A stretch of 64,000 bases of DNA from Isoetes taiwanensis (Eukaryota > Streptophyta > Lycopodiopsida > Isoetales > Isoetaceae), in assembly GCA_021234155.1 (NCBI GenBank), contig JAJEKV010000094.1:2887442-2951441 (forward strand). The letters are read 5' to 3'. The notes under the pieces are model-generated. The model saw only the letters and a program-made list of their open reading frames with translations. It was not told the origin of the DNA and ran no database searches. How positions within the stretch are numbered: position 1 is the first letter of the stretch; the number at the start of each line of letters is the position of its first letter. Below are positions 453 through 21,867 of the stretch, piece by piece. The position numbers were made by a program, and so were the translations under genes.

Positions 453-902
453 CACTCCTAATCCTAAAGAGGCACACTCCTAATCCAGAGAAAGTATTGG
501 AGACAACCGAGTTACTGGAAATGATGGACGACCAGCTTGAAATCGTCCCTGAGGTTCTTCTTGACAGGGCCTATAAGAAGACAAGAAGATCCAAATTTCT
601 CCAATACCTTGTGAAATGGACGCACTTGCCTGTTGAAGACGCTATGTGGGTACTACAATCAGATTTGGAGAAGCAGTACCTTCAATTCATGGAGCAATGC
701 AAGGGTCGACTCGTCACCGAAGTAGTCGACACCGATCCGATAGGTGAGTGGAAGGTAGATTAAAAAGTCTACTTCTGTCTCATGGAAGTAGATGACCTTG
801 AGAGATAAGAGGTCATTCAGGCATACATTGATAGGAAAGCACCTCTAGTCAATGCCTACCACGGGAAGGACGCCACCCTTCATGCCAAAGGCAACTAAAG
901 GT
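453..902 (+). pseudogene. Gypsy pol 3' fragment with chromodomain
   Basis: This matches 19311-19757 at high identity. It includes the pol C-terminus with a chromodomain (YLVKWTHLPVEDAMWV, corresponding to the copy at 19380-19615), the stop codon at ~761, and the hairpin just after it (768-798). The fragment is preceded by host-exon sequence and followed directly by the 3' end of an LTR, so about 1.8 kb between pol and the LTR end is missing. An open frame runs across the upstream junction, but its first residues come from the host-exon copy in antisense and have no meaning. Confidence 0.85.
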
Positions 903-1184
903 GTTGATGCTATTGATGTTGTTGTATATGAGATGTTATGATATATTCACCCTTCGAGGTGAGCTTATTGATGTATTGATGTTATGTGCTCATGTTTATT
1001 CATGCTTCCGCAGCTGGGATGGTCCCGAAGGAAGACGAGCAAATGACCCATCCACTCTTCCCTCACTGGCCCAGTTCATGGGATTGGTGTCAAGTGGATG
1101 GCCCCTGCTAGTTTGGCTACCAGGGGGATGAACTCCACCTTTGGATACGATGGGAGCATCATAGACGAAGTAGGGGACGTCACA
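903..1184 (+). repeat. LTR 3' end next to the primer site (5' LTR remnant)
   Basis: Matches about 21568-21843 of the 3' LTR and positions 65-339, ending in GTCACA. Only the last ~280 bp of the LTR is present, because the left part is replaced by the pol fragment. It is followed by one base and then the primer-binding site, so in position it is the 5' LTR of the element running to 21843. A shared or recombined LTR between tandem elements would give this structure. Confidence 0.85.
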
Positions 1185-1185
1185 G

Positions 1186-1198
1186 TGGTATCAGAGCA
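1186..1198 (+). other. Primer-binding site, initiator-Met tRNA type
   Basis: TGGTATCAGAGCA lies one base after the LTR end. TGGTATCAGAGC is the complement of the plant initiator Met-tRNA 3' end and the usual primer site of plant gypsy and copia elements. Confidence 0.93.
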
Positions 1199-1398: not shown

Positions 1399-1471
1399 AC
1401 CCCTCACAGAGTGCGCCCAGGGCCAATCTGTCATTCTCGGATTTGCCTCTCGCGCACTGTGTGAGTGGTGG
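1399..1471 (+). repeat. Nested hairpin repeat, copy 1
   Basis: First of four ~70-bp copies. The outer arms (CCCCTCACAGAGTGCGC and GCGCACTGTGTGAGTGG) are complementary over ~17 bp with a few mismatches. An inner ATCYG...CGGAT stem closes a short loop (TCATTCT). It could form a cruciform in DNA or a two-tier stem-loop in the genomic RNA of the element. It lies upstream of the TATA box and histone-like ORF. Confidence 0.85.
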
Positions 1472-1610: not shown

Positions 1611-1684
1611 GACCCCTCACAGAGTGCGCCCAGGGCAAATCCATCATTCTCGGATTAGCCTCCCGCGCACTGTGTGAGTGGTGG
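1611..1684 (+). repeat. Nested hairpin repeat, copy 2
   Basis: Second copy, 212 bp downstream of copy 1, with the same outer arms and inner stem. One base change in the right arm (TCCCGCGCAC for TCTCGCGCAC) leaves the stem intact. It is the nearer of the pair preceding the TATA box at 1789. Confidence 0.85.
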
Positions 1685-1788
1685 ACACTTTTTGCCCAAA
1701 TAAACCTAATGTATTGATCCTATAAACACTAATACCTTGCAGGATTGTACAACATGAATTTGCAGGTAAACCCTAAAACCCCCAGATC

Positions 1789-1796
1789 TATAAATA
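1789..1796 (+). promoter_or_regulatory. Internal TATA box of the histone-like module
   Basis: TATAAATA, in the context CTATAAATAG, lies 105 bp before the ATG at 1901 and is followed by CCTCATTTACAC. The same arrangement (TATAAATAG, then CCTCATTTACAC) recurs at 3937 before the next ORF. The duplication of both parts argues for a real internal promoter module. Confidence 0.65.
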
Positions 1797-1900
1797 GACC
1801 TTTAGGGTTCCTCATTTACACTTTCCTTCTCCAGTTAGCCGCTCGTCGTTCAAGGAGGCGATTTTTAGGTGCCAGGAAGGCGATTAGACCAATTCAAAAC

Positions 1901-3350
1901 ATGGCCCACACCAAACAAACTGCCCGAATAGTTGTGCCAGATGACTTCGTCAATGCCCAAGAGCGGGCTGCCCAATAGAAGGCGAGACATGCTCAGGAGC
2001 GGGCCAGGTGAGAGCAAGATCCAAATGCCAATCCTGACACCCAAGAGGAGGATCAGGAACATCAGGAGAAGGAGGAGCGCGCCCAAGAAGTGGAGGAACA
2101 AGAGAACCCTGAGAGCCAGGGTGATGCAGGGCAGAATGAGGAGGAGCAGGACGAGGCAATGACGGAAGAAACGGTGGAGAAACTCAAGGAGAAGAAGGAG
2201 TTAAAAAGGAAGAGGAAGAAAGAGAAGTTGGAGCGCAAAAAGAGAAAAGAGGAGCGCAAGAAGCAAAAAGAGGAGCGCAAAAAGCAGAAAGAGGAGCGCA
2301 AGAAGCAGGAAGAAGAGAACAAGAAGCGGAAAGAGGGCAAAGGAAAAGGACCCAGAGCCGCCGAAGAAACCCCGGCGAAAGACAAAAACAACGCCGGCAA
2401 AGGGAGTTGTAATAGCGGAGCAGGAACCCGATAGGCCACCCTCATCCTCTGACACTGAGTCAGATGATGAGATAAGGGTTCCCCGCGCAACTGAAGGCTC
2501 GGGACCTTCAAATGTAGGTGCTGAAGAGGAGGAGCCGGCAGCAGGACCACCACTCTACCCCAAATGGCCCAAGCCCGAGGCAGACGACAAGAAAGGCAAG
2601 CCAGCAAGGGAGTCATATGTACTCCAGCACGAGCAGGAGTACAGGAAAAAGCTTAAGGAGTACAACCAGTACATGAAAATGTACGAGGATACTCAAGGTA
2701 CTACGAGCAGCACAAAGTCACGTACGTGGAGGGAGGCAGGCCATCGAAGAAGAACACACTGAAGCCGCCCCCAGAAAGACTAGCACCACCGAAGAAGCCA
2801 ATGAGGAGAAAGGCGGATTCTTACTTCACGAGAGCTGCTCGAGAGATCCGCCATTTTCAGAGGAGCTACGGGTTGCTGATTCCACGAGCCGCCTTCGCGA
2901 GACTCACCCGCAAAATTTTGCAGGAATTTGACAAGACCAAGAGAGTAACAGACGATATGTTACTCGCACTACAGGCCCGAGGGATCCACCTTCTTTGTAA
3001 GGGATATGCCACCTGCGTGCATAGGGTAGCCGAAAAACCCCTAGTATACGTGTTTCTGATAAGCAAATTTGACCCCTTTCCGTATGGTTTTACAACTAGA
3101 AGAACATTCCAAAATCCCTATGACCCCTAGTATACATACGGAAAAGGGTAAAAAATCGCCCCCTCCCATTGACGCACATGGTTTTGACAGGTTCCACAAG
3201 GTGACGCCCCCTTGACTACAAGAGGCAGCAGAACAAAGGATAGTTCAGCATTTTGAAGACTCTTTAGCATGTGCCCTCCATGCAAAAAGAGTGACTTGTA
3301 TGCCTAAAGACATGAAACTAGCTAGATACATTAAGAAAGAAGACTGCTAG
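1901..3350 (+). pseudogene. Histone H3-like gene carried by the gypsy element (broken)
   Basis: The reading begins MAHTKQTAR, almost the histone H3 N-terminus (ARTKQTAR). A long Asp/Glu-then-Lys/Arg linker follows, with KKQKEER-type repeats at 2200-2330. The histone fold starts at about 2820 (AAREIRHFQRSYGLLIP, then AFARLTRKILQEF), reaches LLALQ at ~2973, and resumes at 3221 with EAAEQ..., [29 protein letters not shown] and a stop at 3348. This matches H3 helices alpha-N to alpha-3, including the HAKRVT-MPKD loop. LLIPRAAF resembles plant CENH3 more than the LLIRKLPF of canonical H3, but loop 1 has canonical length. The copy is dead: in-frame stops at 1976 and 2009, two compensating frameshifts (about 2340-2365 and 2695-2705), and a 241-bp insertion at 2974. 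Histone identity is near certain; any role in the element is inference. Confidence 0.93.
2974..3214. mobile_element. Small MITE-like insertion in the histone fold
   Basis: These 241 bp separate two halves of one H3 helix. The direct repeat ACTACA flanks them (2968-2973 and 3215-3220), as a target duplication would. The H3 reading LLALQ-EAAEQ is continuous once the insert and one ACTACA are ignored. The insert has internal inverted repeats (CCCTTTCCGTATGG against CATACGGAAAAGGG) and imperfectly matching ends. It lacks GT-AG borders, so it is not an ordinary intron. Confidence 0.7.
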
Positions 3351-3490: not shown

Positions 3491-3560
3491 CACCCCTCAC
3501 AGAGTGCGCCAGGACCAAATCCCCATTCTCGAATTAGCCTCTCGCGCACTGTGTGAGTGG
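3491..3560 (+). repeat. Nested hairpin repeat, copy 3
   Basis: Third copy of the hairpin unit, directly downstream of the histone-like ORF. The inner stem is damaged (CCCCATTCTCGAATT), but the outer arms are intact. With copy 4 it forms the pair upstream of the second module. Confidence 0.85.
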
Positions 3561-3693: not shown

Positions 3694-3764
3694 CACCCCT
3701 CACAGAGTGCGCCAGGACCAAATCCGTCATTCTCGGATTAGCCTCTCGCGCACTGTGTGAGTGG
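3694..3764 (+). repeat. Nested hairpin repeat, copy 4
   Basis: Fourth copy, 203 bp after copy 3. The spacing matches that of copies 1 and 2, so the whole pair was duplicated as a module. Its inner stem AATCCG/CGGATT is perfect. Confidence 0.85.
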
Positions 3765-3936
3765 AGACCAAAATTGACCCAACTGGCCCCAAGTTTCCCC
3801 AAATTAGATGAAATTTCTTGCAATAGGATCTTTATAATGTACTCTTTAACCTAGTTTGCCTATGAATTGCATAGCAGCACCTTAGAATCATAGATATTCC
3901 CCAACCTTAAAATTTTCTAAAATTAGGGTTTTATCT

Positions 3937-3944
3937 ATAAATAG
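3937..3944 (+). promoter_or_regulatory. Internal TATA box of the second module
   Basis: TATAAATA in the context TCTATAAATAGG is followed by ACCCTCATTTACACCC, closely resembling the box at 1789. It lies 118 bp before the ATG at 4055. Confidence 0.65.
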
Positions 3945-4054
3945 GACCACAACCCTCATTTACACCCTACTCATTTGCTCCTCACTCCAAGGCCATTTTC
4001 CAGCTCCCAAAGGCGCTTCCCCATCTGTTTGACATCCCCAACTGCTCTAGCATA

Positions 4055-5578
4055 ATGGCAACATCTGCATTCAGGTGATGGTACAGCGCCACAGCTCATG
4101 TAGCCGAGGTCGACATCAACTTAGTCTTCGCCGTCTTTCAGAAGGAGATTGATATGGAAGCAACCATTAATGCCACCCCCTATTACCAAGACATCATGAA
4201 TGAATTCCATGCCAAGATAGGACCTTCTCTAGTAGAACTTCCACCTTGCATAGGATACTTTGCTCCAAGCATGGCCCTTCGTACATCTCTGCAAGACATC
4301 CCTAAGATAGACAAGTACTTAGAAAGCAAAGCTAGCCGCTTGCCTAATTATATGTCAGTATCTGTAAATAGGAGGAGATATTTCTCTTACACCGCAGCTG
4401 TAGCAATTTTCCTATCCCATAGAGCCCAAACCCAGATAGGAGAACCATCTGTCCAACCCCTAGACATTGAGCCTATGGCCATGGCAGCAGGTGAAGAAGA
4501 GCAGATGCATCTGGAGTACGAGAGGGAAGAGCAGGAGGAAGAGAAAGGACGTGGGTCGGACATTGAAGACATCACTGACGTCGACCTAGTATAAGAAAGG
4601 CAGCAAGCAGAGCAGCAGCTCCAGAGCTTTGAAGAGGGGTTGAGAACCACGCGGACAACTCCACCACTTGGGCTACGCATCACGAGCTTAACCCCAGTAA
4701 TCATCAAAGGAGAGGCGTACCTGAGCCTCCACGACATCAAGAACCTTCCAGAGTGCAGGGACAGGGGCTACAGGGTAGACGAGCTCCTACATCTCCTACG
4801 ACAGCAACCGGACCTCGATGACTTCATCGACCGGGAGACACAGGACTTTCCCATCAGTATAAGGGAGGCCTGGACATACACTGGCCAGACATCGACGGAC
4901 ATAGAAGCCTACACCGGCATCAGGCAGATGATGGACCAGCAGGAGTTACCTTCAGAGGAGGAGTTCTTAGCAATCCAAGAACGGATGGGAATTAGGGGGA
5001 AATCAACGAGTGCACTCTTACCCAGCACCTCAGCAGCGGCACCAGTACCAGCCGAAGGTATCATCAACTTAGGCAGCATCAACTTAGCATCTTCCATGTA
5101 CAGCGACTACAGGGAGATGGTAGAAGTACCGGTTGATGAATACTCCGGAAGACACAGAGCTGCATTCAGATCCGGCGAGGAGGCAGGGCACGACAAAGCC
5201 CTGAGGTTCTATCTACCCTTGCTCATTGATGGAAGGATAGCAGTTATACACCGCCAATTCAGCCCACGTGGGGAAGAAGGAGTTTTTATGCTCACTGCTC
5301 TCTCAGGATTCGGAGGACATGCTCGCATGACCCCAAACGTCGACTATGTCATCCTTGTCAAGAGGACAATAGCATTAAGCATCTTCGACTTCGCGGTCCC
5401 TTATTGGCGACAAGGCAGGTTGGCAGTCACCGCAGCCTATACATCAGACAGAAGGATTGAAGACTTGGTGACCGCATTCCAAGGAGGCACGACCACCAAC
5501 ATCCTGGGGAACTTAGGGCGAACGGTCGGCACAACCCAAATAAAGAAATTCTTGGAGGACAACCCACTCAAAGAATAA
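4055..5578 (+). pseudogene. Second extra ORF of the gypsy element, unknown function
   Basis: One frame of about 507 codons runs from the ATG at 4055 to 5578, broken only by TGA at 4076 and TAA at 4592. Both could come from CGA and CAA by C-to-T change. The predicted protein has an N-terminal globular part (to ~residue 130), an acidic Glu/Asp-rich stretch (4480-4590), then a larger globular C-terminal part (LGLRITSLTPVIIKGEAYLS; RQFSPRGEEGVFMLTALSGF; ending KKFLEDNPLKE). I recognise no enzyme motif, zinc finger or membrane segment, and it is not gag-like. It has its own TATA box and hairpin pair and lies between the histone-like ORF and gag. A structural or movement-type role cannot be judged from sequence alone. 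Confidence 0.7.
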
Positions 5579-5964
5579 AACATAAAATTTTCAATTTCCT
5601 ATGTCTATTTATGAATGTAAACATATTATATCCATGAATATAAATATGATATTGATCATGTTCTCTTGATATATTTTGTCCCCACAATTATATCGCCAAA
5701 CAAACCAATGCAATGACAAAACAATGAACTAATCATTAGAGTGTAATCTAATGTGTATGCAGCTAGAGTATCTAGGAATGTTGAGGACAAGGACAACATG
5801 AGCAAGAGCACACTCCAGCAAGGCAATTCCAGCCAAGAAATCTGTACCAGGAGTTCGAAGCACTAACCCCGGAATAGGAGATATCCCAGATAAGGTCAGA
5901 CATCCATGAGATAAGAGCACTGCTGGCAGGAGCAACAACAGGGGGACCAGACCAGAACGTACAA

Positions 5965-7127
5965 TTGCCAGAAACACCAGCCGGCCGAGCAGCTAAACCA
6001 AAGAAGAGAAGTCAGAGAAGGAGGTCACCCAGCACGGACTCCTCCAACTCAAGTTCCGACTCCGACTCTGAGTCTGATGAGCAGGAGAATGAGCCACAGG
6101 ATCGCCGGGAGGGTCCCAACCGTGATAGGGGCAGGGCAGAAGCAGACTATCAAAAGAAAGTGGACTCGGCATTGAGCAACGTATAGAAAGCCAGGAAGTT
6201 GGAGCAATTCTCAGGGGATAGCAGGTCTGGAATGGAAGCCAAAGTATGGTTAGACGAAATGAGGGAGTATGGGAATGCTTATAGCATGAAGGATAATGAC
6301 AAAGGCAGAGTAGCAACAACCAACCTTAAGGGAGCAGCTAGGATTTGGTGGAAAGGCTATGCCAAAAGCCATGGGCTAAGCAGGGATAGTTGCAGGTTCA
6401 AGAAGTTTGCCAAAGCATTTAAGCGCCATTATGTGCTAAGGGAACACAAGTGTCACATGATGCAGCAGTTCTACAGGTTGCAGCAGGGAAATAAGACAGT
6501 CCAGAAGTACACCGAAGATTTCATGAGGCTGAGGCCCTATGTGCCAAAATTAAGTGAAAGGCATGCAGTAGAGGGGTACATTGAAGGCTTGAATGAAGAG
6601 ATCAGGAAGCTAGTGAGAGCAATAAACCCCAAGACAGTGTCAGAGGCAGAGTCTAAAGCAGTGAGCTTGCAAGGAACGGGACCCCAAGAGAGTGGGCCAA
6701 GGCATCAGTACTATCAGGACAAAGGGAAGGGTACAGGAAGCTACAGCCCAAGAGCAACAAGCCCAGCAGCTAGCAGACCTCAGTATAACGCAAATTCTGG
6801 GAAGCAAGGCAACGGAAATTTTGGCAAGCAGGATAAGAAACAGGTCAGCTTCAAGGAGCAAGGAGTTCAAACTACTCCAAGGCAATAAAGCAGTTCTTAC
6901 AGTCCATCCCCAAGGAGAAGAGGCAAGAATGTATTGAAAAGCAGTTGTGCTTCAGGTGCTTCCAACCAGGACATCAGACACATAATTGCCCATTTGTGAT
7001 GAATGCGGCGTTAGCGGAGCTAGGATGGGAGACACCCACGGACGTCGACGAAGAAGATGCCCCCGACTACATCCAGGGTGAGTGCCACATCTTTGCCGCT
7101 ATTAACTCCGAGAATGCTGAGAGTTAG
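5965..7127 (+). pseudogene. gag: Gypsy gag with zinc knuckle (broken)
   Basis: The N-terminal part has a basic/Ser-rich stretch, then the retrotransposon gag core (EAKVWLDEMREYGNAY, GAARIWWKGYAKSHG, FKRHYVLREHKCHMMQQFYRLQQGNKTVQKYTEDF). A CCHC zinc knuckle follows at ~6955-6995 (CFRCFQPGHQTHNC). The frame is interrupted by TAG at 6184. The knuckle and following residues are in the -1 frame relative to the core (the core frame stops at 6886-6888), so there is either programmed frameshifting or a small indel. Another TAG lies at 7125. The true start is unclear. The 5579-5964 stretch upstream is AT-rich leader whose end already reads in the gag frame, with stops. Confidence 0.88.
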
Positions 7128-8587
7128 TATCAAGTCATTTCGACGACTGGGAAGGCTCAAGCCAAATCCTTCATAGTGTTGATAGACATAGGGAGTACCC
7201 ACAATTTTGCCTCGCCAAGGATGGTAGAAATGTTGAAGCTGAAGCCTTTGAAGTCCAAGTCTAGGCCAGTTGTGTTGGCAAGTGGGGCAGTTCGACACAC
7301 AGCTGGGTAACTCCAACATAGACTTGCCAGGTATCAATGTTGGAATAGGAGCAGAAGTGATGAACATCGGCAAGTACAACTTGATCATAGGCATGGAATA
7401 CCTTGGGCCGGCTGGAGCTGTGATTGATTGTGGGAAGCGGAAAGTAACCTTAACAACGTTAGAGGGCAAGGTCATTGAGATAACAGGTAAAGAAGTCACC
7501 CCAATCATGCAATGCATGTCTAGTAAGAAGTTACTTAGATACTTAAAGAAGGAGCAAGTGGCCTATGTCTTTAAACTCGAAGTTGACGAGCAAGAGACAG
7601 CGGAAGAGAGAGAGAGGCCAAAGTATTGAGCAAGCTCCCAAAGCCTATAGCAAAGTTGGTGAAGTAATTCCATGATTTGTTCCCAGATGAGATTAAACAA
7701 CTTCCACCTTACAGAGGAGTCGAGTGTGAAATAGCACTTGAGCCAGGAACTAAGCCAACAAGCAAGGCGCCCTACAGGATGTCAACCCAGGAGTTGACGG
7801 AATTGAAGAAGCAGTTGCAGGAGTTGCTAGACCTAGGGTTTATAAGACCTAGTGTCTCTCCATTTGGAGCGCCAATACTCTTCGTGAAGAAGAAGGATGG
7901 AAGTCTTAGGATGTGCATTGACTATCGTCAATTAAACAAGCACCATCAAGAACAAGTATGCCCTACCACGATCGGATAATCTGATGGATCAATTGCAGGG
8001 AGCGAAGGTCTTTTCCAAGATAGACTTGAGGTCAGGTTATCACCAAATCAGAATCAAGGAAGATGACATCTATAAGTCTGCATTCAGGACGAGGTATAGC
8101 CATTATGAGTTCACAATGATGCCGTTTGGATTGTCCAATGCTCCAGCAACTTTCATGAGGCTCATGAATGATGTTTTCTGCGAGTTCCTAGATTCTTTCA
8201 TCATAGTTTTCTTTGATGATATTCTAGTTTACAGCAAATCCCTAGAGGAGCATGTCCAGCACTTGAGAAAGGTGCTTGAAAAGCTAAGGAGGCATCAACT
8301 CTTTGCGAAGCTTATCCAAGTGCCACTTCATAACAGAAAGAGTAGAAGGTCTTTTCCAAGATAGACTTGAGGTCAGGTTATCACCAAATCAGAATCAAGG
8401 AAGATGACATCTATAAGTCTGCATTCAGGATGAGGTATAGCCATTATGAGTTCACAGTGATGCCGTTTGGATTGTCCAATGCTCCAGCAACTTTCATGAG
8501 GCTCATGAATGATGTTTTCTGCGAGTTCCTAGATTCGTTCATCATAGTTTTCTTTGATGATATTCTAGTTTACAGCAAATCCCTAGA
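7128..8587 (+). pseudogene. pol: Gypsy protease and N-terminal reverse transcriptase
   Basis: An aspartic protease motif is at ~7180 (LIDIGSTHNF; the usual D-T/S-G has become DIG). RT follows from ~7700, with [27 protein letters not shown] (split here: LGFIRPS, then FVKKKDGS), [26 protein letters not shown] and the catalytic FFDDILVYS at ~8215. The frame shifts near 7942, where one extra base lies in the stretch after LNK. A 341-bp tandem duplication then repeats 8004-8344, and element A interrupts the second copy at 8587. RT resumes at 17335. This copy cannot encode active pol. Confidence 0.92.
8004..8587 (+). repeat. 341-bp tandem duplication within RT
   Basis: Positions 8004-8344 are repeated from 8345. 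The second copy reaches TAGA at 8584-8587, is interrupted by element A, and finishes at 17335-17432. The copies differ at only a few sites (for example GACGAGG against GATGAGG at ~8090/8430). The duplication is therefore recent and older than the insertion of element A. Because 341 is not a multiple of three, it also breaks the frame. Confidence 0.93.
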
Positions 8588-8867
8588 AAGCATGATTTCA
8601 TTAATTGGATAAAATAACGCAATTTTGAGAATTTTAAGCACACCTTATTTGCTCAAGCACGAATACTTTCACCTTGTTCTCGAGCCCAACAAACATGAGG
8701 TAATTAACATATACATATACATACAAATTATGTGTTATACTTGTACGTGTACATGATACTTGTAGAAGCCCAATAATGGCCCTACATTCTACACCAATAA
8801 TTCACATCAATAATTTCACTTCACTATTAAAACAGCTCGACTCGGGGGTAGAGATCATTCATCTTCC

Positions 8868-9110
8868 ATGGCTTCCTCGATGCCTCGTCCAGAGCACATC
8901 CGATCTTTCAAGTGCTACTTGAGCTACAATGATCTGAATGAATGCGCAAGAAATGGTGTCAATCTTGATCCATGGCTCCAATCTAAGGCTGATGGTCCTG
9001 CTAGTGCTTGCAGGAAGCTCACTCGTGTTAAAGTCCACATTTACTGGCTTCCTGATCAGGAGATCTATGAGCTGAATAGCATCACGAGCTTTGATGTTGA
9101 TGATGAGTGA
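8868..9110 (+). CDS. Small unknown protein (80 aa)
   Basis: A short open frame begins MASSMPRPEHIRSFKCY, contains LDPWLQSKADG and KVHIYWLPDQEIYELN, and ends in an acidic tail. I recognise no family. Support for real coding comes from a diverged duplicate 450 bp downstream (9330-9551) that keeps the same landmarks in the same order (HI-x-K-C-S-x-S, LDP-L, IRV-IH-WLPE, ISGIT, acidic end). It sits just inside the left end of element A, a usual place for accessory or captured genes. Confidence 0.45.
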   Translation: MASSMPRPEHIRSFKCYLSYNDLNECARNGVNLDPWLQSKADGPASACRKLTRVKVHIYWLPDQEIYELNSITSFDVDDE

Positions 9111-9329
9111 ATCAATGTTATCAGTGATGACTACTGTATCTGTTTATGATGTAATAATGGTATGAGCACCTATAAACTATGTAAGGATGTAATAGCACAA
9201 TGAATTTCTAAAGCTTTTCAATCACACCTGAATTACTAAAGCACAAAAACATATCCATACGAAAGATGTATTATACCTGTATGTATACAACAGTCTTATA
9301 CACGCGCAATAATTTTTCGCCTTCATCAG

Positions 9330-9551
9330 TTCACCACATCGAGGCGATCAAGTGCTCAATGAGCCACTCTGATCTTGTTGGTTGCCTAGACAGGCATCTT
9401 CTTCTTGATCCCTACCTGCGAAGAAAAGCTTTGGGTCTTTGAGATTGAGGTGCCTAGCGTCAATTCGTGTGATGATCCATCTGATTTGGCTTCCTGAGCG
9501 CATGAGCTATGAGATATCAGGGATCACTACTACAGATCATGAAGATGAATG
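9330..9551 (+). pseudogene. Decayed tandem copy of the small-protein gene
   Basis: Translation gives HIEAIKCSMSHSDLVGC and LDPYLRRKALGL, then a stop, then (after a frame change) SIRVMIHLIWLPERMSYEIS and a DHEDE end. This parallels the protein at 8868-9110. The stop and frame break make it non-functional. Confidence 0.5.
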
Positions 9552-10105
9552 AATCACCTGTTCAACATGTTATAGTGTAAGAGCTCTTGTGTTAAGATGA
9601 AAAATGCAAGACGTAATAAATAATAAATAGTCTATTGTAGTGATGTTATGGATAATAAATATTTCTCTTGTGAAATCTTCAGTAATGTACTGTAAGACTC
9701 AAGTTTCATCTCCATCCTCGGATGCCTCTTTGGCAAGCAATTCTTGTAATTTGGATTCCTACAAGAGGGGAGGTATCACAACTGTAATGGCTTTGGTTCC
9801 ACGGACCAAGCATAGTCTATCGTTTTGAGAGGGCGATAGCGTGGTGCGTCATTAGGATTCGGCCTCCACTTCTTATGCCGGTGAGTCCGATATTGTTGAT
9901 CGTGCGGGGTGCCTTTCTAGCCACGGGCTCCCACCAAGAAACAAAACCTCGTTATTATAATGGGGCGGTGGGATCTTGTATTGGATCCTCTTCCACATAC
10001 GCTAACCATGTAGGACATGCATCTGCTGGTCTCACAAGAAGAAACATACCTTTCTGTACATCTTGGTATGGGTCAAATATCTCCACTGCATTCTTGGGTT
10101 TATCC

Positions 10106-11196
10106 TTAGCAGGCCCAACATAGGCAGCGGAGCGTCATATCGATCGACTGAATAGATTCAGGCTCTTGAAGCACAACTTGCCTTGTTTGGGGCCAGAAGT
10201 TCTGAATTTCTGGATTGCCCGGGGGTACTTCACCTAGCACACGCATCACTTCGCACCAGTAGTCCATGACCTCGTTCATGTAGGTATTAGACCACGAGTT
10301 CACACCAGCCCTGGAGATGTTAGCCCAATGCATAATGTATTTCGCAATGGACGACCTCAATGCTCCTATGTCCTTGAGGCATGCATATGGCCTGACAGTC
10401 TTGGGCGAGCCAATCGGTATCTTTGGCAAACCATTGTCATCTGCTTTCCACATCCGAATACCCTTTTCTGGCAACCATTCTCTATGACCAGGTCTCATCT
10501 TGTAATACATTAATGGCCACCCATCATTCATGCAGAACTTGAATAACAGGGGCTCCAAGTGACCAACCAAACGATCCTTCTTATCAGGAATGTAACCTTT
10601 TACGAACCCCTTCCAATCGGGAACCTCGGTAACAAGGTATGGTGTCGGTGCCTTTGTGCTACATTCTCGGAAGAGTTGCATTAGTTCTGGAATAGTTAGA
10701 GCATTCTGGAATAGTTGAAAACAAATGTGGTCCTGTCTGAAGCTCGCAAGTTCCAATAGAACCTACGCATACACGCTATCTCGCCTGATGTGAAGTTTGT
10801 GCAGCATCTTCGCATGCAGCAGAGCGAAGACTTAAAGTCTAGAATGGAAGCTGCTGTGATTTTTCTCTCAGCTTTAGTGGCCACAGGAGGTGAACGTGGG
10901 GTCCGGTTCACCATTCTGTAAGTCCTCTTTGTTGCCTTTTCAGGCTCAATTTGCATGGCATAGGGTTCTGCTTCAACGACTGTCTGTTTCGCAGTCTTTA
11001 TGAGTGTTGACACAGCAACATTGTCTACTAACACCAAGGCAATCGGCCACCTCACTAGGTCGTGCAACTGTGGCATTTCAGCACATGCTTGGCATCGCAT
11101 GGTCGGCCTATCTGGCATAGGGAATGTCCTCATTATGGTTGCTGCCAAGTAGTCTTCTCCCAATCTCATGTCACCAAACTGACTGATTAGGGTCAA
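10106..11196 (-). pseudogene. Transposase remnant of element A, catalytic core deleted
   Basis: Read on the minus strand, the upstream half ends with a Cys-rich motif (LCCMRRCCTNFTSGEIACMRRFYW). It corresponds to the N-terminal HCCSQRCLLKIGLKELRLIRD of the element B protein at ~31435. In the next frame it passes directly to a C-terminal segment (ALTIPELMQLF, HLEPLLFKFCMNDGWPLMYYKM, REWLPEKGIRMWK) of the type found after the catalytic core in this family. The core itself (DGMDQ, LQLDNT, GHTHDQ in element B) is absent, so this copy has a large internal deletion and a frameshift. Reading resembling the same gene continues down to ~10045, where AAAG|GTATGT looks like a splice donor. Family assignment is by layout and short motifs. 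Confidence 0.6.
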
Positions 11197-12568
11197 TGAA
11201 GATGATCACCCCAAGGGCATACCGGAATGTTGCGGCCAGTCATGGAGTAGTGTGCAACTTTTCTCTACTAGCTTCGTCCCTTGAAATGCCTCGAATGTTA
11301 TTCTTTGAAGGGCTTTTCCGGTGCTTGCAAGCCCAGCCAATCAATTTTTAATGCAATGCGGCGGTGTGGATATTTCGGGTTCTTGTGTAAGGGTAGCTAT
11401 CCAATCGCTACACAAATAAAACTCCCTCGCGAATCGCGAAAGTGTTGTAAATTCGGTTGGGATATGGCAAACTAATGCTTCCGTCGAGAATAACTTCCAT
11501 AGACACTACAATGCTATCTCGGCGGAAGGGCAAGTTGTGGTGTTTGTCGAAGGCATGTACTTTTCCTTCGCCCACTTTGACTCCATGGAATAGTATGGAC
11601 CTCGAGGCAGCCATATGCGCAAGCACAATGGGCGTTATTGCTTTCGGTTAAAAGCGGCGCGATTTCCGCGAGCACTTTCACGTTAGCCGGACAAACCAAG
11701 TTCAAGGAAGGACGTGGTTAGCAGGATCGCGACCGCGATCTCCTAGAGCAGGCAGTTACATCTGTCTACATTGTACGTGCCTAGAGCAAGCAGCTAACAT
11801 AGTCTCCTAGAGCAAGCAGATACCATAGTCTAGATTATACGTGCCTGTTTAGATTATGCTGCACAAAATCGCCTTCGCGATCCGGACGAGTACTAGCTGT
11901 GCTGTAGGGACGACCTGGATGAATCAATAACCCCTGATGGGTAACTTTATGGGAGAGCATTAAATGGTACCTTAGTCTAGAATATGTTCGGAAAGATCGC
12001 CTTCGCGATCCTCGATGGAGTACTATGCGTGCCTTAAGGATCACAATGAGAGGAAGATTAATGACATCAACGCCTACAAATAGGAACATCTATATTACCA
12101 AATTAGAACGGGATTTGATTTACCAGACACAAAAAAAGGGTGCATGCGGATTTAAGTGAAAACACAGTTTAATGAATGAACTTGCCTGTCTTTGGCCTTC
12201 AATGAATTCTACAACGTCAAATATGCTTGGATGCTTTGAAATTCATCAGAGCGCCATTGTAATCCAACATAGCGCCTTGAAATTAACTCCGGCGCCTCGA
12301 ACAACTCCTTCCCAAGCTTTGCAACTATGAAATTGTTGGAGGGTCTCACCGCATTTGAAATGGATTTGAATTTCAAAATGGTGTCCTTCGGGCGGGACCT
12401 TTTTATGCCCTAATGTCCCTGTCCCTATCCAATTTAAACTGACATGCCGTGGGTGATTTCTTTGTCCTTTCCAAAGCGCCCTACGGTCACTCTCACACAA
12501 ATTCTCACGTGTCACCGTCCCGTACGTTGCCAAGCTGGGGGTTGCTTTTAGGGGTAATGGGGGAATAT

Positions 12569-12640
12569 GCCGCCCGTCATAATGGCGCCGCCCGTCATAA
12601 TGACGCCGCCCGTCATAATGGCGCCGCCCGTCATAATGGC
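12569..12640 (+). repeat. 18-bp minisatellite, four units
   Basis: GCCGCCCGTCATAATGGC is repeated four times head to tail, with one unit ending GAC. The flanking ~150 bp also repeats TTCTAGCGCC three times. It lies in the non-coding centre of element A (11197-13228), upstream of the divergent methyltransferase gene. The rest of that ~2 kb holds palindromes and short CTAGAGCA repeats but no gene I can support. Confidence 0.85.
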
Positions 12641-13228
12641 GTTCATTTTTCTGATCACCCTCGCGAAAATTTCTAGCGCCTTCAGCAAATTTCTAGCGCC
12701 ATCCGAAATATTCTAGCGCCACCATGTCTCGCGCCTCTGCCCTCAGAGAAGGTAATTTCCGCGATTTTTTATAGCATAGGTATCGCCATAGCTTCGGCCA
12801 TGTCTTTTTAGGATAGTTAGATGGTCGCTACGATCGCGGCCGCGATAGTTGTGACCACGACCTTCCCTCTTTTCTGGAAGGTAGTGCTCAAGACAATCGC
12901 GGCCGCGATAGTGGCGAGCAATTTATATAAAACGTAATACTCATTTGTTCAGTAAAGAACGAGCGGTGCGTTCTTACCCAAGATAATGGTGACAGAACAC
13001 CCTTTATTAGTTTGCAACTGATGAATCGGATCGCGGCCGCGATCCTTAGGAACACCTTCTTCCAATACTAGTGCATCTAACCTGTGTTCAATTGCTTCTG
13101 CAGCCCTCGAACTATTCCGCGGGCCTAATGTAGAACCAATCAGAATTGTCACTCCCGATAAAAGCAGGAAGTGGTGTGTTGAAATCTCACAGGCAAAACC
13201 TCATGTCACTGGAGACCGCCGAAAGGAC

Positions 13229-16171
13229 TTGTGTTTGTTCTTTAGGAATGGGAAGGGTCCAGAAGATTACGAGCAGCTAGGTATAGTTATTGCTATGTGG
13301 GAAGGCACCAAAAACAATGTACAGGATGCAATAATTTGCAGCGTAGAAGATACTCAAGGGTTGCAGTTTGTCGAGTACGTTTTGAGATGGCAGAATTATG
13401 ATCCATCCATTATGATTGCGAGTAAAGTCAACAAAGCGGCAAGCGGCAAGGGGATGCCCACCAGTGCTAAGGGATTTGGCTGGATATTGCCGTCCTATGA
13501 TTCCTTAAGTTTGTCGGGTATAAAGTGCAACAGGGATATACTTGTTGGATTTAGCATGTGCAGAAAAGGTCTTTCAGCTGATAAGAAACCTCCTTCTGCT
13601 GCTTTGAAGGCTACTAAAGACAACAAACTGCCTTCAAGGATGGACACCAACTGGCTCAGGGCTGTTTCAAAGAAGAGATCTGTGGCCCCTTTGCAGGCTA
13701 TTGGCGAACCATCCACTCCAAAGGATACTGTAGTGCCCATAGAGGCAAATGTTGTTGTTCCTTCAAAAAGAAATCGGGCCAGTAGCCCCTCAAAGCAAAT
13801 GTTGGTTGTTCTGCAAAGTAGTTGACCCTTGACTCCCGTCATGCTTTTGATCGCTCCCGCGGGGAGACTCGAGGTCTGTAGAAGGACAGCCATCAAAGAG
13901 GATCCCGCCATTCAGGATAAAGATTCCAAAGGTGCGCCGCGGATGACGGTCGCAACCTTCGACGTCTTCTACTCCTTCCTCGTCCACTAAAGCAACACCT
14001 ACCAGCCACTTATTGCCCTGGAGAACTGATCCCCAAATGCCAGAAGATTTGAAGTTTAATCCAGATGAAGAAAAGAAACTGGCTCAGGAGACAGCATCCA
14101 AGCTCGAGGAGTTCAAAAGATATTACCCAATGGGTGTAAACTGGTTCCAAAGGGTTAGCATTTTCGATTGCGAACCAGCTCCCGCTAATATGACACATAG
14201 AGTCCGGTCGAATGACCATGTACTGTTTCTTGATAAAAGCTTCAAGAAATACCCGACGGAGGTTCTTACACCTGCCGATCTCGTTCCATATGATCCTTTA
14301 ACAAGGTCTGTTACATCATATTTATTTCTTTCTTGTCATATTGGTTACATATATAAATATGCTCAACCGGATCGCGATCTTCGTGAACAATTTCTTGCAC
14401 TAACTAGTGTCTCTCGGTCACTTGCAGGAAACTAGTCACTTGGTCGCGCCCAGAAGAATTGGCAAACAAGAAATTTTATATTATTTCTGGTAATCACGGC
14501 ATTTTTTTTTGCCGCGGTTTTTTATGCACATGCGTGGGCAATGTCGAGCAAAGGTTGGAATTTGCGAAAGCATATTTAAAAAGAAGAAGTCGTGTATTAA
14601 ATGGAAATCTCTCCAACAAAGAATACATTCAGATTTCCATACAGTGCAACGACGTCATCGCAGAAACAGTATACAAAGAACCACTGATAGAAAAGCTCCA
14701 ACAACTAAGAAACCAAAGACAAGGCATTGGGATGTCCTCCACAAGGGCCAACAGGCTAGCGGTGACATCCGCCTAGAAGGTATGTTTTTGTTTATTTGCT
14801 CGGGGAAAATCGCCGTCGCGATCCTAACCAAAGACTTGCGGGGATTTTGTCGAGGTGGCTACCACAACATTGAAGGTTAAGGAACTGAAGGATGAGAAGC
14901 AGTTCCTATTTATGCAAGATTCTGCCTGGTCTAAACTCGTAGAAGTTGTCAACAAATGGGCAACCCGAAAGCTCACTGATGATCAGGGGGAATTACCAGA
15001 GAAACCTTCAAAGGAATTCTTCAACAAGACATTCCTGAGAAACCTACGAGGAATGAACAATGCTGAGGTAAGCCAGTTGATGGACGAAATCTTCTGAGGG
15101 CAAGGTTTTCTTGAAAGTGCGGTGAGGGGGTATCTGGGGCGTTTTAATTGCAGTCAGAGGGCTCTAGACATCAGAACACTTTCACTCATGCGTCGTGAAG
15201 TGTTATCATACGCCAATTCTATCTCAGAGAAGCTATACAATAATTTTGAAGAGTTGGCTTCATGTTTTCCAGAGCTGTCTGAGCAACGTCTCCTGGATAT
15301 TGCAGACACAGATTTCGAATACGTCAAAGCAAACTATAATAAAGAGGCAGTTCAAGGTAATCTGCCTGCAGTTTTTTTGGAAGCTATTGTTGCTATAATG
15401 AGGCCAGATGAGGCCCGGAAAATGAAAGAGAAACAAAACATCGTGCAGCACGTAACAAAATGTGGCATCCTTGTGTCTGCATCGGTGTCTAAAAATGCCA
15501 GTTTGATTTTTGTAGACATGCGTAGTTTTTCCACCCTGTGGGATGTGAATAAATACACAGATTTTTTTAGCAGAGTTGCAGGCATGACACATGCAAAAGT
15601 GTACCATATTGTCATGTTTCTCAGATCGGTACATTTGCCAAACTGTTTGTACAGTCTTAGCCAGATACAAGGTAGCTCCCATGTTTCCCTAGGTGCTTAT
15701 GAAGAGAGAGGATGGGAGAGCAAAAAAAATATAAAAGAATTCCAGTATTATGTCAGCCATGTGACAATAAACAGGAGTGACGTTCGTGTGCTGCCCGTTA
15801 AACCCAACTTGGAGCTGCGGCTGACTCAAGTCACTAAAGCACCACAAAGCACTCCTCTTCCAAAATATCCGATGGCGGGCGAATTTAAGATGTAGATGCA
15901 AAAACAAAAAGAAAGTATTTGGAGTTCTTTTGGGTAAACCCAAATTCTCATGGGCAGCTATGGAAGGCGACTTCGTCCTCAAGAAGAGCGGGCAAAAACC
16001 TCTTATGTCTATTATATAGTGAAGGAGCTGGTACCATTAGAAGGTTGCGTTTTGGATTTCTTCTCAGGCGGAACTGCCTCAAGGGTAGCGTTGATGCAAG
16101 GAAAACGGAGTGTTGCTTTTGAGTTTGGCGACAAGGTATGCCGTTTCCTTAGATCTTTCTTGAGATTCTAG
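13229..16171 (+). pseudogene. Element A ParB-like/methyltransferase gene, degenerate
   Basis: Blocks in order parallel the element B gene: an N-terminal domain (13229-13825, containing CNRDILVGFSM, compare CDEKVLVKGFWY in B); a ParB-like region (14013-14330) with FYIISGNHG at ~14480, compare YYVLGGTHSYKA; a linker (14855-15097); and an open block of 257 codons (15122-15895) with LPAVFLEAIVAIM, compare LPAGFLNLV. At the place of the catalytic DIPY motif of B this copy reads VDMRSF, so the amino-methyltransferase active site is missing. The SAM-binding region (~16045) reads LDFFSGGTASRVAL in place of LDAFSGTGTTAICAL. Frames change between blocks; some gaps are introns and some are decay. It is probably not an active enzyme. 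Confidence 0.65.
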
Positions 16172-16601
16172 AGAAAATGGCAAGGCGACATGGAAGAGGA
16201 AGGTGATGAGCAAGATGAGCAACGTGAAGAGCAAGGTTCGGACAAGCGATATTAATATAACACGGGGAACGGATCTCGGCAACATGGATCGGATACTAGA
16301 AGGCTGGATCGAGAAAAGCTTCAAGAAAGGATCAAGGAGACCCGAACCGATAGAGCGGATCGAGAAGGCAGGCAAAACTTGATCCAACTTTCAAGAAGCT
16401 TGAAGCACCGAACCGTAACTTGGACACCGTAATGCCACCGCTAACTAAAGCAACGGACAAGCAACTGGACAAGGCCCTTCCTAATTTGGAGTATGGTGAA
16501 ACAGCCGCCGCCGGAAGTGGGAGAACCTCCCAGACCCTTCACCTAAAAGGCGAGGAAGCTGGTACCCTCTAATGAATATTTCGAAAGCAATTGCGTGGTA
16601 A

Positions 16602-16883: not shown

Positions 16884-17334
16884 GTTATGCTTTTTCAGTT
16901 CAGTATGTGTTCAACTTTTGTACACTATGCTTTTGTGTTATCTCAACTTAGAATAGGATAAAAAAATAGTCTGAAAGATCGCGGTGGCGATTCTGTACAT
17001 CAGTTATACATCCCCCAGATGGTAATTTGACCACGAAGCACACAATGTGCTTCTTGTATTCTGCCTTCACTTGTTCTCGCTAGAATCACAATGGCGATCC
17101 TTACGACCACTCGTGATGCTACTCAAACCCCTCGGTTACTGTCATGCCAGCTTTGGCCTACAGGCCTGGTGTCAAATTCTGGCGCGTGTTTTTTTTTCAA
17201 GCTGAACTTAGGATTATTGAGGCTTGGTTTTGGTAGAGAGGAATCATTTCTTACCATCCCCGGGGTGACCACAACCTATTTCGTTGTCAAACGAGAAAAC
17301 GAAATTTCTCTAATTAATGAAACCATGCTTTAGA

Positions 17335-19615
17335 GGATCATGTCCAGCACTTGAGAAAGGTGCTTGAAAAGCTAAGGAGGCATCAACTCTTTGCGAAGCT
17401 ATCCAAGTGCCACTTCACAACAGAAAGAGTAGAGTACTTGGGGCATGTAATCTCAGCGGAAGGGATCTCCACTGACCCTGCAAAGATTGAAGCAGTAATT
17501 GATTGGCCGGCACCGAAGAACACACATGAAGTGAGAAGCTTCCTCGACCTCGCAGGATATTACAGGAAGTTCGTCAAGAACTTTGCAAAAGTAGCAGCTC
17601 CGTTGACGGACCTCACCAAAGCGGGAAAGATAAAAGATTGAGCAAGTCATTGGCAAAAGAAGGCCTATGCAGCATTTGAGACGTTGAAGGAAGCTTTCAC
17701 GACAGCGCCAGTCTTAATCTTGCCAAATCCAGCAAAGGATAAGCTTGTAGCAACACACACTAGCAGGATAGCAACAGGTGCAGTACTCATGCAGGAGGAA
17801 AGGGTAGTCGCATATGACTCCAAGAAGATGAATGATGCGGGGCAGCGATACCCAACTCATGACCAAGAACTCGGCCATTGTAAGAGCATTGCAAATCTGC
17901 AGACACTATTTGTTGGGAAGGAAGTTCCAACTAGACACAGATCATCAAAGCCTCCAGTATATATTCACGCAACCACTCCTGAACCTGAGGCAAAGAAGGT
18001 CGATGGAATTTCTCGAGGAATATGGCTTCGAGATAGCCTACAAGCCAGGCAAGCTAAATGTAGTCGCAGATGCGCTCTCCAGGAAGCTCTTGAAGACGAG
18101 GATGCATTGCAATGCCATATCAACGCTCACAAGTGAGTATGGCAAGAAGATTGAAGAGACCTTGCCAACAGATTGCGACTTTAAAGAAGTATGGGCAAAC
18201 CTCTCTAAAGAGGCAAGAACAGACAAAGAAAGGGAGGCCTTCAAGAACTATAAAAAGGAAGGAAACCTCCTATACCATAAGAACAAGTTATATGTATCAG
18301 AATCTTCAGGAGTAAGAACTATAGCTGGCCATGCAGGGTTTATGAAGACATATTTCAAGATTAGAAGCAGCTACTTCTGGCCCGACATGAAGAAGCAGAT
18401 AGCAAGGTACATTCATGAATGCCAGATATGCCAGCAAACAAAAGCGGAGCAACTCCGAATCCCAGGAGCCTTAGAGCCGTTGCCAGTGCCAAATGCTAAG
18501 TGGGAAGTCATAAGCATGGACTTCATTACAAGACTTTCAAGAACAGCAAGAGGCAAGGATGCCATGATGGTGGTGGTAGATAAGTTGTCGAAGATGGCAC
18601 ACTTTGTGCCGTGCAGGACAACAGACACAGCATTGGATACTGCCGTCCTATTTACCAAAGGGATATTTAGACTCCACGGCATGCCGAGGGAGATAATCTC
18701 GGATAGGGATTCTAAATTTATGAGTGCATTTTGGCAAGACCTATTTACCACCATCCAGACGAAGCTTTCTATGAGCACAGCATATCATCCGCAAACAGAT
18801 GGTCAGACGGAGCGAACCAATAAGATTATTGAAGATATGCTAAGGAACTATGTGTGGAACAAACAATCTAAGTGGGAAGATTTCATCCACTTAGTAGAGT
18901 TCGCCTACAACAGCACTAAGCAGGAGTCATTGCAGATGTCTCCTTTCATAATAAATTATGGGTATCAGTGTCTTACCCCAGATACTTGGCACAACCCAGT
19001 GTCAAAAGTGGAAGTCTCCCAGCAGATGTTATCGGATATGCAGCAATTGGTGGAGGTAAGAGGTTACCTTCTAGCAGCGAGAAGTAGGCAGAAAAGTGTA
19101 GCCGATAAGCATAGAACGGTAAGGGAATTTCAGGTGGGAGACAATGTATGGTTGAAGATCAAGGTGAAGCAGGCCAAGCTTCGCATCGGCAATTGCAAGA
19201 AGCTTGCTCCAAGATGGGCTGGACCTTTCAGGATAACCAAAAGAGTAGGTACCCAATCCTACAAGTTGGACCTGCCACACATCTCAAAATCCATAGGGTC
19301 TTCCATGTAAGTCTCCTAAAGAGGCACACTCCTAATCCAAAGGAAGTATTGGAGACAACCGAGTTACTGGAAATGATGGACGACCAGCTTGAAATCGTCC
19401 CTGAGGTTCTTCTTGACAGGGCCTATAAGAAGACAAGAAGATCCAAATTTCTCCAATACCTTGTGAAATGGACGCACTTGCTTATGGAAGACGCTACGTG
19501 GGTACTACAATCAGATTTGGAGAAGCAGTACCCCCAATTCATGGAGCAATGCAAGGGTCGACTCGTCACCGAAGTAGTCGACACCGACACGATAGGTGAG
19601 TGGAAGGTAGATTAA
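17335..19615 (+). pseudogene. pol: Gypsy RT end, RNase H, integrase and chromodomain
   Basis: RT resumes after element A ([28 protein letters not shown]). RNase H follows (DTDHQSLQYIFTQ; DALSRK), then integrase: a zinc-binding region (GHAGFMKTYF...CQICQQTK), the catalytic core (SMDFITRL; IISDRDSKFMSAFW; AYHPQTDGQTERTN) and a GPF/Y-type region (WAGPFRITKRV). A C-terminal chromodomain (FLQYLVKWTH, DATWV) spans ~19390-19560. This is the chromovirus order. Lesions are TGA at 17639-17641, a frameshift near 17870, and another near 19270 ahead of the chromodomain. The Asp expected in the first RNase H motif is not visible. In the family, the chromodomain targets integration by reading histone H3 methylation. 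Confidence 0.93.
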
Positions 19616-19618
19616 AAA

Positions 19619-19645
19619 GTCTACTTCCGTCTCACGGAAGTAGAT
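19619..19645 (+). other. Conserved stem-loop after the pol stop codon
   Basis: CTACTTCCGT-CTC-ACGGAAGTAG forms a perfect 10-bp stem just 5 bases past the stop codon. In the second copy (770-792) both arms have changed (CTACTTCTGT and ATGGAAGTAG), yet G-U pairs keep the stem in RNA. It could be a terminator, a stability element or a packaging element. Confidence 0.6.
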
Positions 19646-19648
19646 GAC

Positions 19649-20286: not shown

Positions 20287-20301
20287 TCAAGGTGGGGAGA
20301 T
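20287..20301 (+). other. Polypurine tract
   Basis: TCAAGGTGGGGAGAT immediately precedes the LTR start TGTGACGT, which is the expected plus-strand primer position. A second near-identical tract ~38 bp upstream may be a duplicate or a central backup. Confidence 0.85.
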
Positions 20302-21843
20302 TGTGACGTTCCAGTATAATATATGCCCCAAATATATATATTATACTGCCACGTCATGCGTACATGTCATCATGACAAACACTAGCGAGAGGTAAAGGGT
20401 TGCACCTAGGGGGCATCCTCGTTGCACCTAGGGGGCAACCTCGTAAGTTGTGCATGTTTAATAAACATATGCAACTATAAACCCCATGTCAAATGGCAAA
20501 ATCCCATTTGGCCAATGTTAACCTAACCCTAAGGGTGTCTATATAAGGGCTTTCCCCTTAAACCGTAAACCCTTCTTCCTTTTTCGCAATTAGAGTTTCC
20601 CAAATCCATTTTGGCCAAGCCAGGACTCTAGTTCGTATTGCCAGGCTCTTAAAAGCCACCCTTGCACAACAGATCTTCCAGCAGCAACAGTCTTCAGCGG
20701 GATCAGAAGCATGGACGCATTTCGAGGATCTGGAGCAAGTCAGGCGCCAGGTAAATAGTCATTCTGTTGTGCAAAGCCGCCTTTTAGCTTGGCAATGAGC
20801 TGGTTGAACATGTTAGTTCAGCCTTAGAGGCCTTATAGATCCCGAGATAATAAGCTCTAACAAAAGAACCTAACTTTGGATGTTTAGATAGGTAGATTAG
20901 ATGTTATTCTACAATTCAGTTCTTTGATGATGATGGTATTCATTCTATGCTCTCCCGTGTATTGGGAAGGGGGTAGAGACCCTAAAAGCCTTTGTAGCAG
21001 ATGTTCCTAGATAGCCTCATTAATACCCAATTAATGCGGCCTGTGCACAAGAGCCCGCCTGGTTGTGGGTGGAGGGGCTAGACCGATGGAAAAGGGGGAC
21101 TTGTCCCATCACTGATTGATCCCTCTGGTGTGTAAAGCCTACCAGGGATCTTAGTGGGCTAGGCTTAATGGTTTGCCACTGAGTGTGGGCAAGGCATGAG
21201 CTCGACACCTCTGGGGTGATGCGTCACCTTCCATGGGGTTCAAGTTGAATAAGGGCAGTGGCCCTCTAGCCGCCTGTGATGGGCATGCATGCCTCTGGAG
21301 GGGAGATGATTCTCCTCCTGCCTCATCGGGACTGGGGAGATGCAACCCAGCAGTAGCCCTCTTGGCTATGTACCCGGTAGGCTATGATCCGGTCCCAACA
21401 CTTTTCAACCTACTCTGCAAAGTGTGCACGGGAGGGGCGGATGGAGTGGACTACCCAACAGCCATGTTCTTATGCCAGCCCAATTCATTGCTATGACTCG
21501 GTCTGCATTGACTTCTGGAGGCCCAAGCCGCAAGTCGATCCCCTATAAGTCCGAGCCCTGGTTAGGATCTCCCCATGTTGATGTTATTGATGTTGTTGTA
21601 TATGAGATGTTATGATGTATTCACCCTTCGAGGTGAGCTTTTGATGTTATGTGCTTATGTTTATTCACGCTTCTGCACTTAGGACGGTCCTGAAGGACAA
21701 ATGACCCATCCGCTCTTCCCTCACTGGCCCAGTTCATGGGATTGGTGTCAGGTGGATGGCCCCTACTAGTTTGGCTACCGGGGGGATGAACTCTGCCTTC
21801 GGATACGATGGGAGCATTGATAGACGAAGTAGGAGACGTCACA
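20302..21843 (+). repeat. 3' LTR of the gypsy element (1542 bp)
   Basis: It starts TGTGACGT and ends ACGTCACA, a perfect 8-bp terminal inverted repeat of the TG...CA type, and it directly follows the polypurine tract. Its last ~280 bp recurs beside the primer site (903-1184). U3 contains two tandem copies of GTTGCACCTAGGGGGCA (20399-20440) and a TATA box at 20540. The bases after it (gcaatgctcc) belong to the 3' end of a minus-strand exon. Confidence 0.92.
20540..20546 (+). promoter_or_regulatory. LTR TATA box
   Basis: TATATAA, in the context GTCTATATAAGGGC, lies 239 bp into the LTR. A pyrimidine-rich run (CCCTTCTTCC) follows ~25-40 bp downstream, where transcription of the element would start. 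Confidence 0.65.
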
Positions 21844-21867
21844 GCAATGCTCCGACCAATGTCATAT

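Follow-up and report, generated by a model that had tools for sequence, protein, structure and literature searches.

Organization of the H3-bearing element

The window is a 64,000-nucleotide stretch of the Isoetes taiwanensis genome (contig JAJEKV010000094.1, positions 2,887,442 to 2,951,441). It begins with a decayed Ty3/gypsy chromovirus, nested and rearranged, whose components follow the order LTR, primer-binding site (PBS), H3-like gene, a second open reading frame (ORF2), gag, pol, chromodomain and LTR (Table 1). The original prediction of an H3-like gene located between the PBS and gag of a gypsy element is thus borne out. The Ty3/gypsy features found are an LTR pair, a PBS, a polypurine tract, gag and an integrase placed after the reverse transcriptase (RT), while a chromodomain at the integrase end characterizes the chromoviruses. 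The chromodomain copy at 395-763 matches PF00385 with 32.7 bits, and that of locus L034, which belongs to a related element described below, with 32.9 bits.

The two LTR ends differ at 20 of 269 positions, 19 of the differences being transitions, and the upstream portion of the 5' LTR is replaced by a rearranged piece. In positions 1-904, an LTR end with host flank at 47-456 (similar to 21553-21960) is followed by a piece of chromodomain at 462-904 (similar to 19314-19757) and then by an LTR end, an arrangement that is either a nested tandem copy or an assembly effect. The RT region carries a tandem duplication (8004-8254 / 8345-8594), directly after which pol is interrupted over ~8.7 kb (about 8595-17330). 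Beyond the interruption the element continues from 17331, where its bases match those from 8243 onward. Further along the window, a minus-strand ORF of 607 aa (50530-52353) looks by eye like a DIRS/Ngaro-type reverse transcriptase.

Table 1. Features of the H3-bearing chromovirus, in window coordinates
Feature	Positions	Strand	Basis or remark
5' LTR, 3' part, ends ACGTCACA	902..1184	+	alignment to 3' LTR
Primer-binding site TGGTATCAGAGC	1186..1197	+	read from sequence
Palindrome 1 before H3 gene, imperfect, 69 nt	1400..1468	+	RNA fold z -6.3
Palindrome 2 before H3 gene	1613..1681	+	RNA fold z -6.8
TATA-like ATCTATAAATAG	1786..1797	+	about 104 nt ahead of H3 start codon
H3-like gene, kind B, broken: tail MAHTKQTARI, K/E-rich linker, H3 fold	1901..3350	+	
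247-bp insert in H3 fold	2968..3214	.	direct repeat ACTACA at 2968-2973 / 3215-3220
Palindrome 1 before ORF2	3493..3560	+	RNA fold, copy comparison
Palindrome 2 before ORF2	3696..3764	+	RNA fold, copy comparison
Second ATCTATAAATAG, ahead of ORF2	3933..3944	+	same 12-mer
ORF2, broken	4054..5578	+	C-terminal part resembles kind-A ORF2
gag (Retrotrans_gag, Ty3_capsid)	5863..7010 (start about)	+	domain matches
Protease and reverse transcriptase	7011..8594	+	domain matches
Remainder of pol: RT end, RNase H, integrase	17331..19310	+	beyond insertion
Chromodomain end of pol	19314..19613	+	second piece at 462-761; repeats 97% identical
Polypurine tract AGGTGGGGAG	20290..20299	+	read from sequence
3' LTR, TGTGACGT...ACGTCACA	20302..21843	+	end part repeated at 902-1184

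By sequence comparison, the homology of the window gene to histone H3 is beyond doubt. Its N-terminus reads MAHTKQTAR and the two halves of its fold, scored separately, give 35.1 bits (2699-2974) and 40.9 bits (3216-3347) with the Pfam Histone family, whose cut-off is 26.4 bits. Joined across the insert, the two pieces find H3.3 as best PDB match (E = 3e-22). The product aligns ungapped to H3 over 89 residues, with a helix like HAKRVTxMPKD, the segment LLIPRAAF and a loop 1 of canonical length; CENH3 has a longer loop 1. Canonical H3 or H3.3 is a protein of 136 aa with ARKS at K9 and K27, whereas the H3s of the elements have no ARKS and carry long N-terminal parts or linkers.

The gene had been read as a single ORF, but the window copy is broken by 2 stops in 401 codons, by frame changes near 2340-2400 and near 2699, and by the 247-bp insert, which splits the fold between LLALQ and EAAEQ. 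This copy is dead. The insert has an internal 19-bp inverted repeat, no second copy of it is found within the window, and it is perhaps a small DNA transposon. An intron at this place (GT..AG, 2997-3243) was considered and discarded: the sequence before the second piece reads as protein, and in 8 of the 11 fetched relatives the fold runs through in a single frame, the insert being absent. Random sequence of the same dinucleotide make-up has 12.3 stops on average and at least 5 (300 runs, best of three frames), in a comparison that allowed two frame changes to the observed reading and none to the random one. Decay after insertion predicts a mean of 1.4 to 2.4 stops at 3.7% change, with 2 observed. 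Homology is a stronger argument for an H3 gene than these stop counts.

The TATA box announced for the H3 gene is present, and ATCTATAAATAG with CCTCATTTACAC precedes both this gene and ORF2. The 69-nt palindromes of the window, four in number and with RNA fold z values from -5.6 to -6.8, are 88-97% identical to each other, the spacers between them being at shuffled level (0.446 vs 0.451). As the H3 gene and ORF2 each have their own palindromes and ATCTATAAATAG/CCTCATTTACAC, separate expression of the H3 gene is likely in the window element. Exact matches to at least one palindrome arm occur in 10 of 11 relatives of the window's kind (kind B, 3.3 kb each), and an exact-match search of viral and prokaryote contigs with a palindrome arm found none. 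Elements X2, X3 and X4, of the second kind described below (kind A), display a hairpin of different spelling in the leader ahead of H3.

The two pieces of ORF2 give no match to Pfam, NCBIfam or PHROG families, the predicted ORF2 structure has a mean pLDDT of 36.6, too low to be of use, and short peptide patterns detect no ORF2 relatives in viral contigs. ORF2 matches are present in 6 of the 11 kind-B relatives (3.3 kb each), and the window ORF2 shares 27% identity over 59 aa (E 4e-6) with that of L035, a kind-A element. In X2 (L033+L034) and in L027, gag directly follows H3 and there is no ORF2, which therefore seems dispensable where H3 is kept.

Two kinds of element-borne H3 in the assembly

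A Pfam Histone search of the assembly (1,658,258,908 bases, 1110 contigs) gave 8,704 loose candidates, the best 150 of which were scored and found above the cut-off. The top 15 (L001-L015), canonical in sequence, are regarded as host H3 genes. The 135 others among these best 150 are non-canonical H3 matches at 144.5 to 154.7 bits, many of them within open frames of 300-494 codons. Sixteen of the 135 were read (the 15 loci L016-L030 and X4). These kind-A sequences encode proteins of up to about 485 aa that end in a near-canonical H3 fold, which closes the open frame in 16/16 copies, L021 having a stop inside the fold. In all but one of the 15 loci the fold has upstream of it an N-terminal domain of ~200 aa that belongs to no Pfam family, the two sometimes lying in different frames.

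The order PBS, H3, second ORF and gag recurs in other copies. In L016-L030 the H3 sequence is followed by ORF2 (12/15) or gag (2/15); L020 has neither ORF2 nor gag within the stretch examined. Four longer kind-A contexts, three of which contain loci already among L016-L030, have H3 followed by ORF2 (three) or directly by gag (one), and then pol. X2 is a structurally complete kind-A insertion with H3 between PBS and gag. Its LTRs begin TGTGACGT and end GCGTCACA, with a divergence of 0.046 (K2P), the target site duplication is CAATC, the PBS starts one base past the LTR, and gag is followed by a pol with chromodomain. X4 has an LTR pair with a divergence of 0.052 (K2P) and X1 shows no LTR pair within its 20 kb. 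The PBS of the window also lies next to the LTR in X2 and X3; an exact match to it was not found in X1 or X4.

A second search, with 92 residues of the window H3, gave 6,331 loose candidates. The best 150, scored, are the window and 149 other copies with 77-93% identity (E <= 7e-44), here named kind B. Copies of the element H3s are spread over very many contigs. A single-copy accident, the outcome that was to overturn the original prediction, is excluded by the 135 non-canonical matches and the 149 other kind-B copies, each in the best 150 of its search. The H3 gene resides inside a mobile unit that exists in many copies of at least two kinds and in which the fold is kept.

Selection on the fold and origin of the H3 genes

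The ratio dN/dS, proposed to lie below 1 in intact copies, is far below it in both kinds. For the kind-A fold (89 codons, 16 copies), 81 of 120 pairs were used, 30 with saturated dS and 9 with dS <= 0.05 being set aside, and the median is 0.05 with a maximum of 0.154. For the kind-B fold (120 codons, 8 copies), 26 of 28 pairs are finite, ranging from 0.028 to 0.275 with a median of 0.067. In seven longer kind-A frames the rest of the ORF gives 0.13-0.56 where finite and the fold at most 0.107. X3 and X4, whose pol identity is 77%, have 80 of 89 fold residues in common, and their N-terminal parts differ with a dN of 0.71 (L018 is the H3 locus of X3). The kind-A folds share 75-81 of 89 residues with canonical H3.

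The copies in these comparisons are top-scoring ones, which lowers dN; we do not think that this choice alone would give saturated dS together with 75-81 of 89 canonical residues. Judged from codon substitutions, the H3 fold is under purifying selection in the sampled copies of both kinds, and would be retained for a role that requires such a fold, pairing with H4 being the simplest. That the elements captured fragments of host H3 and spread them as functionless passengers agrees with the many broken copies, the window's included, but is hardly credible in view of dN/dS values far below 1 and of dS saturated between lineages.

Relative to the canonical copies, the 16 kind-A folds share changes at positions 86, 89, 105 and 107, which fits a single capture of a canonical H3. 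Position 87 is H in L019 and X4, as in the canonical copy L015, a residue that we take to be a plant H3.3 mark. A tree of 32 rows, with long branches, unsettled bootstrap values, and three of its four CENH3/CENP-A rows and four H3 references entered by hand, places kind A beside canonical H3 (86/79) and kind B on a long branch (100/100) that joins the four CENH3/CENP-A rows on one side of a branch at 73/68. A single clade of A and B is rejected (AU p 0.011). One origin for both was consequently dropped, and it is doubtful that H3 was captured once and for one function; the two H3s may go back either to two captures or to one that ran away. From RT to integrase, the window pol has 71-81% amino acid identity to X3, about as far as X4 is from X3 (77%), so that related elements carry quite different H3s.

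Short peptide patterns of the H3 and of the integrase found no relatives in viral and prokaryote contigs, a weak miss for the H3, whose queries held a wrong fold junction. The same wrong junction weakens the protein database searches, in which a 125-aa H3 query gave no match and the only hit obtained was a protein of 289 aa from Hyalella azteca, which belongs to the Pfam Histone family and seems to resemble CENP-A.

Roles in integration targeting and in escape from silencing can both be conceived for the element H3s. For targeting, the variant would be deposited in host chromatin, in the case of kind B perhaps at centromeres, as a landing site for the integrase. This would suit elements that carry a chromodomain, and a kind B that has LLIPRAAF and joins the CENH3/CENP-A rows. 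The CENH3 likeness suggested earlier for the window's type is, however, weakly backed by a tree with long branches, kind A groups with canonical H3 and not with CENH3, H3-bearing copies lie on very many contigs, and homogeneous repeat density is described in the I. taiwanensis genome paper (PMC8566536, available in part). We hold targeting to be very doubtful.

Altered H3 tails and their putative function

None of the 16 kind-A open frames, a few of which are short, has an ARKS motif, vs two in each of the 15 canonical H3 genes, nor does any frame of 11 kind-B loci. The proposal that the chromodomain acts as reader of a mark on the H3 made by the same element gets no support here, the ARKS of K9 and K27 being missing from the element H3s examined. 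Chromodomains of chromoviral integrases bind methylated H3, and those of type I, which bind H3K9me, have a cage of three aromatic residues. An alignment inspected by eye, which covers all but the first of the expected cage positions, shows in the window chromodomain a conserved W and an L at the expected third place. Reading of element H3 marks by the chromodomain is unsupported.

The kind-B tail starts MARTKQTAR like H3, with MAHTKQTAR in the window. Position 9 is I in 6, M in 4 and V in 1 of 11 readable copies among the window and 11 relatives, one being without match. The next 20 relatives, taken by rank whatever their tail, have I in 12 and M in 5 of 17 readable copies, two others being unaligned and one cut. 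Together, I is found in 18, M in 9, V in 1 and K in 0 of 28 readable copies (32 examined). R8 is mostly kept in these close copies and position 10 is V, not S. In eight rows codon 9 shows all four third bases with its first two bases unchanged; TKQTAR being the criterion by which these rows were chosen, the conservation of codons 3-8 follows from the choice, and L042, with V at 9, is outside the set.

Across the assembly, 100 places (control 0) have the exact tail in which position 9 is I or M and position 10 is V, and a kind-B fold, whole or broken, follows it in 7 of the 8 places fetched. MARTKQTAR-x-V with any residue at position 9 occurs at 250 places, only 100 of which have I or M. Among the 100 matches listed of these 250, K is found in 40, M in 23, I in 19, V in 16, and R and L in 1 each. 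With K in 40 and V in 16 of those listed, K9 loss is not general among such tails, and a replacement of K9 in all of them was rejected. A further H3-bearing sub-lineage, L079-L081, has the tail MARTKQTARM, with M at position 9, and a related fold (...FLIPRAAFQRLVREILWD...); at other places in the genome, nearly the same tails have K at this position.

A fold that is kept and a tail that is changed where silencing marks sit lead us to favour, tentatively and at a little short of an even chance, the hypothesis that the elements encode an H3 variant that would render chromatin resistant to H3K9 silencing and act as an anti-silencing factor. The element H3 would pair with host H4, and both could form nucleosomes or a nucleoprotein on the element cDNA or on the new insert. 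Owing to its altered tail (kind A has lost both ARKS; kind B retains residues 1-8, K9 being replaced in the window's lineage), such chromatin could not carry normal H3K9/H3K27 methylation. The methylation that silences transposons would not be writable, the element supplying its own anti-silencing factor. Against this hypothesis, K9 is still present in many tails of the kind-B type, kinds A and B do not form one clade, and other roles such as packing or targeting would leave the same selection signature.

An architectural role is rather unlikely. Here the element H3 and host H4 would condense the cDNA or the pre-integration complex, by analogy with giant-virus histones, and the tail would be free to change because no mark is needed. 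The loss of ARKS, the K/R/E-rich linker of kind B and a fold better kept than the rest of the ORF all agree with it, but H3 residues 1-8 are exact in many kind-B copies (100 tails, control 0) and packing would need none of them.

The tails of the window's lineage could, alternatively, poison the silencing enzymes: K9 changed to M or I would inhibit H3K9 methyltransferases, as engineered H3K9M does, with MARTKQTARMVV or ...IVV as candidate tail peptides. I or M stands at position 9 in 27 of 28 readable close copies, with R8 mostly kept, and PRC2, in the available part of a study of K27, is inhibited by M or I at the target position, not by lysine, arginine or glutamate, with preference for R at -1 (PMC6513997). 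H3.3K9M lowers H3K9me2/3, and in H3.3K9M tumours 16 of 19 changed transposons went up (PMC8866878, available in part). Of the 100 listed tails with V10, 40 have K and 16 have V at position 9, which argues against poisoning as a general rule, as do the replacement of S10 by V and the absence of any such tail from the 16 kind-A frames. Poisoning is possible for the window's lineage and, taken overall, clearly unlikely. A scenario in which H3 was captured at least twice, H3K9 silencing being disarmed by tail loss in one lineage and by K9-to-M/I changes in the other, as oncohistone-like inhibitors, is likewise conceivable but rather unlikely.

Few host proteins are as closely guarded as the core histones, and the silencing of transposons is written on H3. 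If true, a group of retrotransposons that makes its own H3 would represent a counter-move at the level of the nucleosome, and bears on how histone variants arise. The anti-silencing hypothesis is testable: the H3 frame is open in many copies, the altered residues are clear and the host genome has been published.

Comparison with known systems

Word searches of open-access PubMed Central found, among their best-ranked matches, no description in print of a retrotransposon-borne H3 gene, and 'histone' is absent from the main text of the genome papers of I. taiwanensis (PMC8566536) and I. sinensis (PMC10541799). In the main text of PMC6317226 the word occurs once only, on H3K9 binding by chromodomains. 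By the features tested the window element is a chromovirus, and its H3 gene is undescribed as far as word searches show. With plant Ty3/gypsy chromoviruses it shares LTR, PBS, gag, protease, RT, RNase H, integrase and chromodomain, and it differs from them by the H3 gene and ORF2 between PBS and gag. Ogre/Tat elements also have an extra ORF upstream of gag, in which we know of no histone domain; the Isoetes elements differ from them in having a chromodomain. Giant viruses and bracoviruses carry histone genes, those of giant viruses packing viral DNA. They have in common with the Isoetes element a mobile or viral genome that encodes core histones, but are DNA viruses, whereas the element is reverse-transcribing.

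EZHIP and the K-to-M oncohistones resemble the window's lineage in that their H3-type tail carries M or I where a methylated lysine would stand (PMC6513997, PMC8866878, both available in part). They are, however, host proteins or mutations and not transposon genes, and among the element H3s the replacement of K9 is limited to some lineages. The nearest precedent seen, in the available part of PMC9289625, is the family of Phalaenopsis gypsy elements with an ORF for an AlkB-type RNA demethylase. Fifteen extra domains are reported there from 121 angiosperm genomes, with no histone among those named in that text, which gives only some of the fifteen. As in Isoetes, the captured gene of the orchid elements forms a separate ORF, and the authors suggest that it gives the element an advantage against host control, but the gene captured is a different one.
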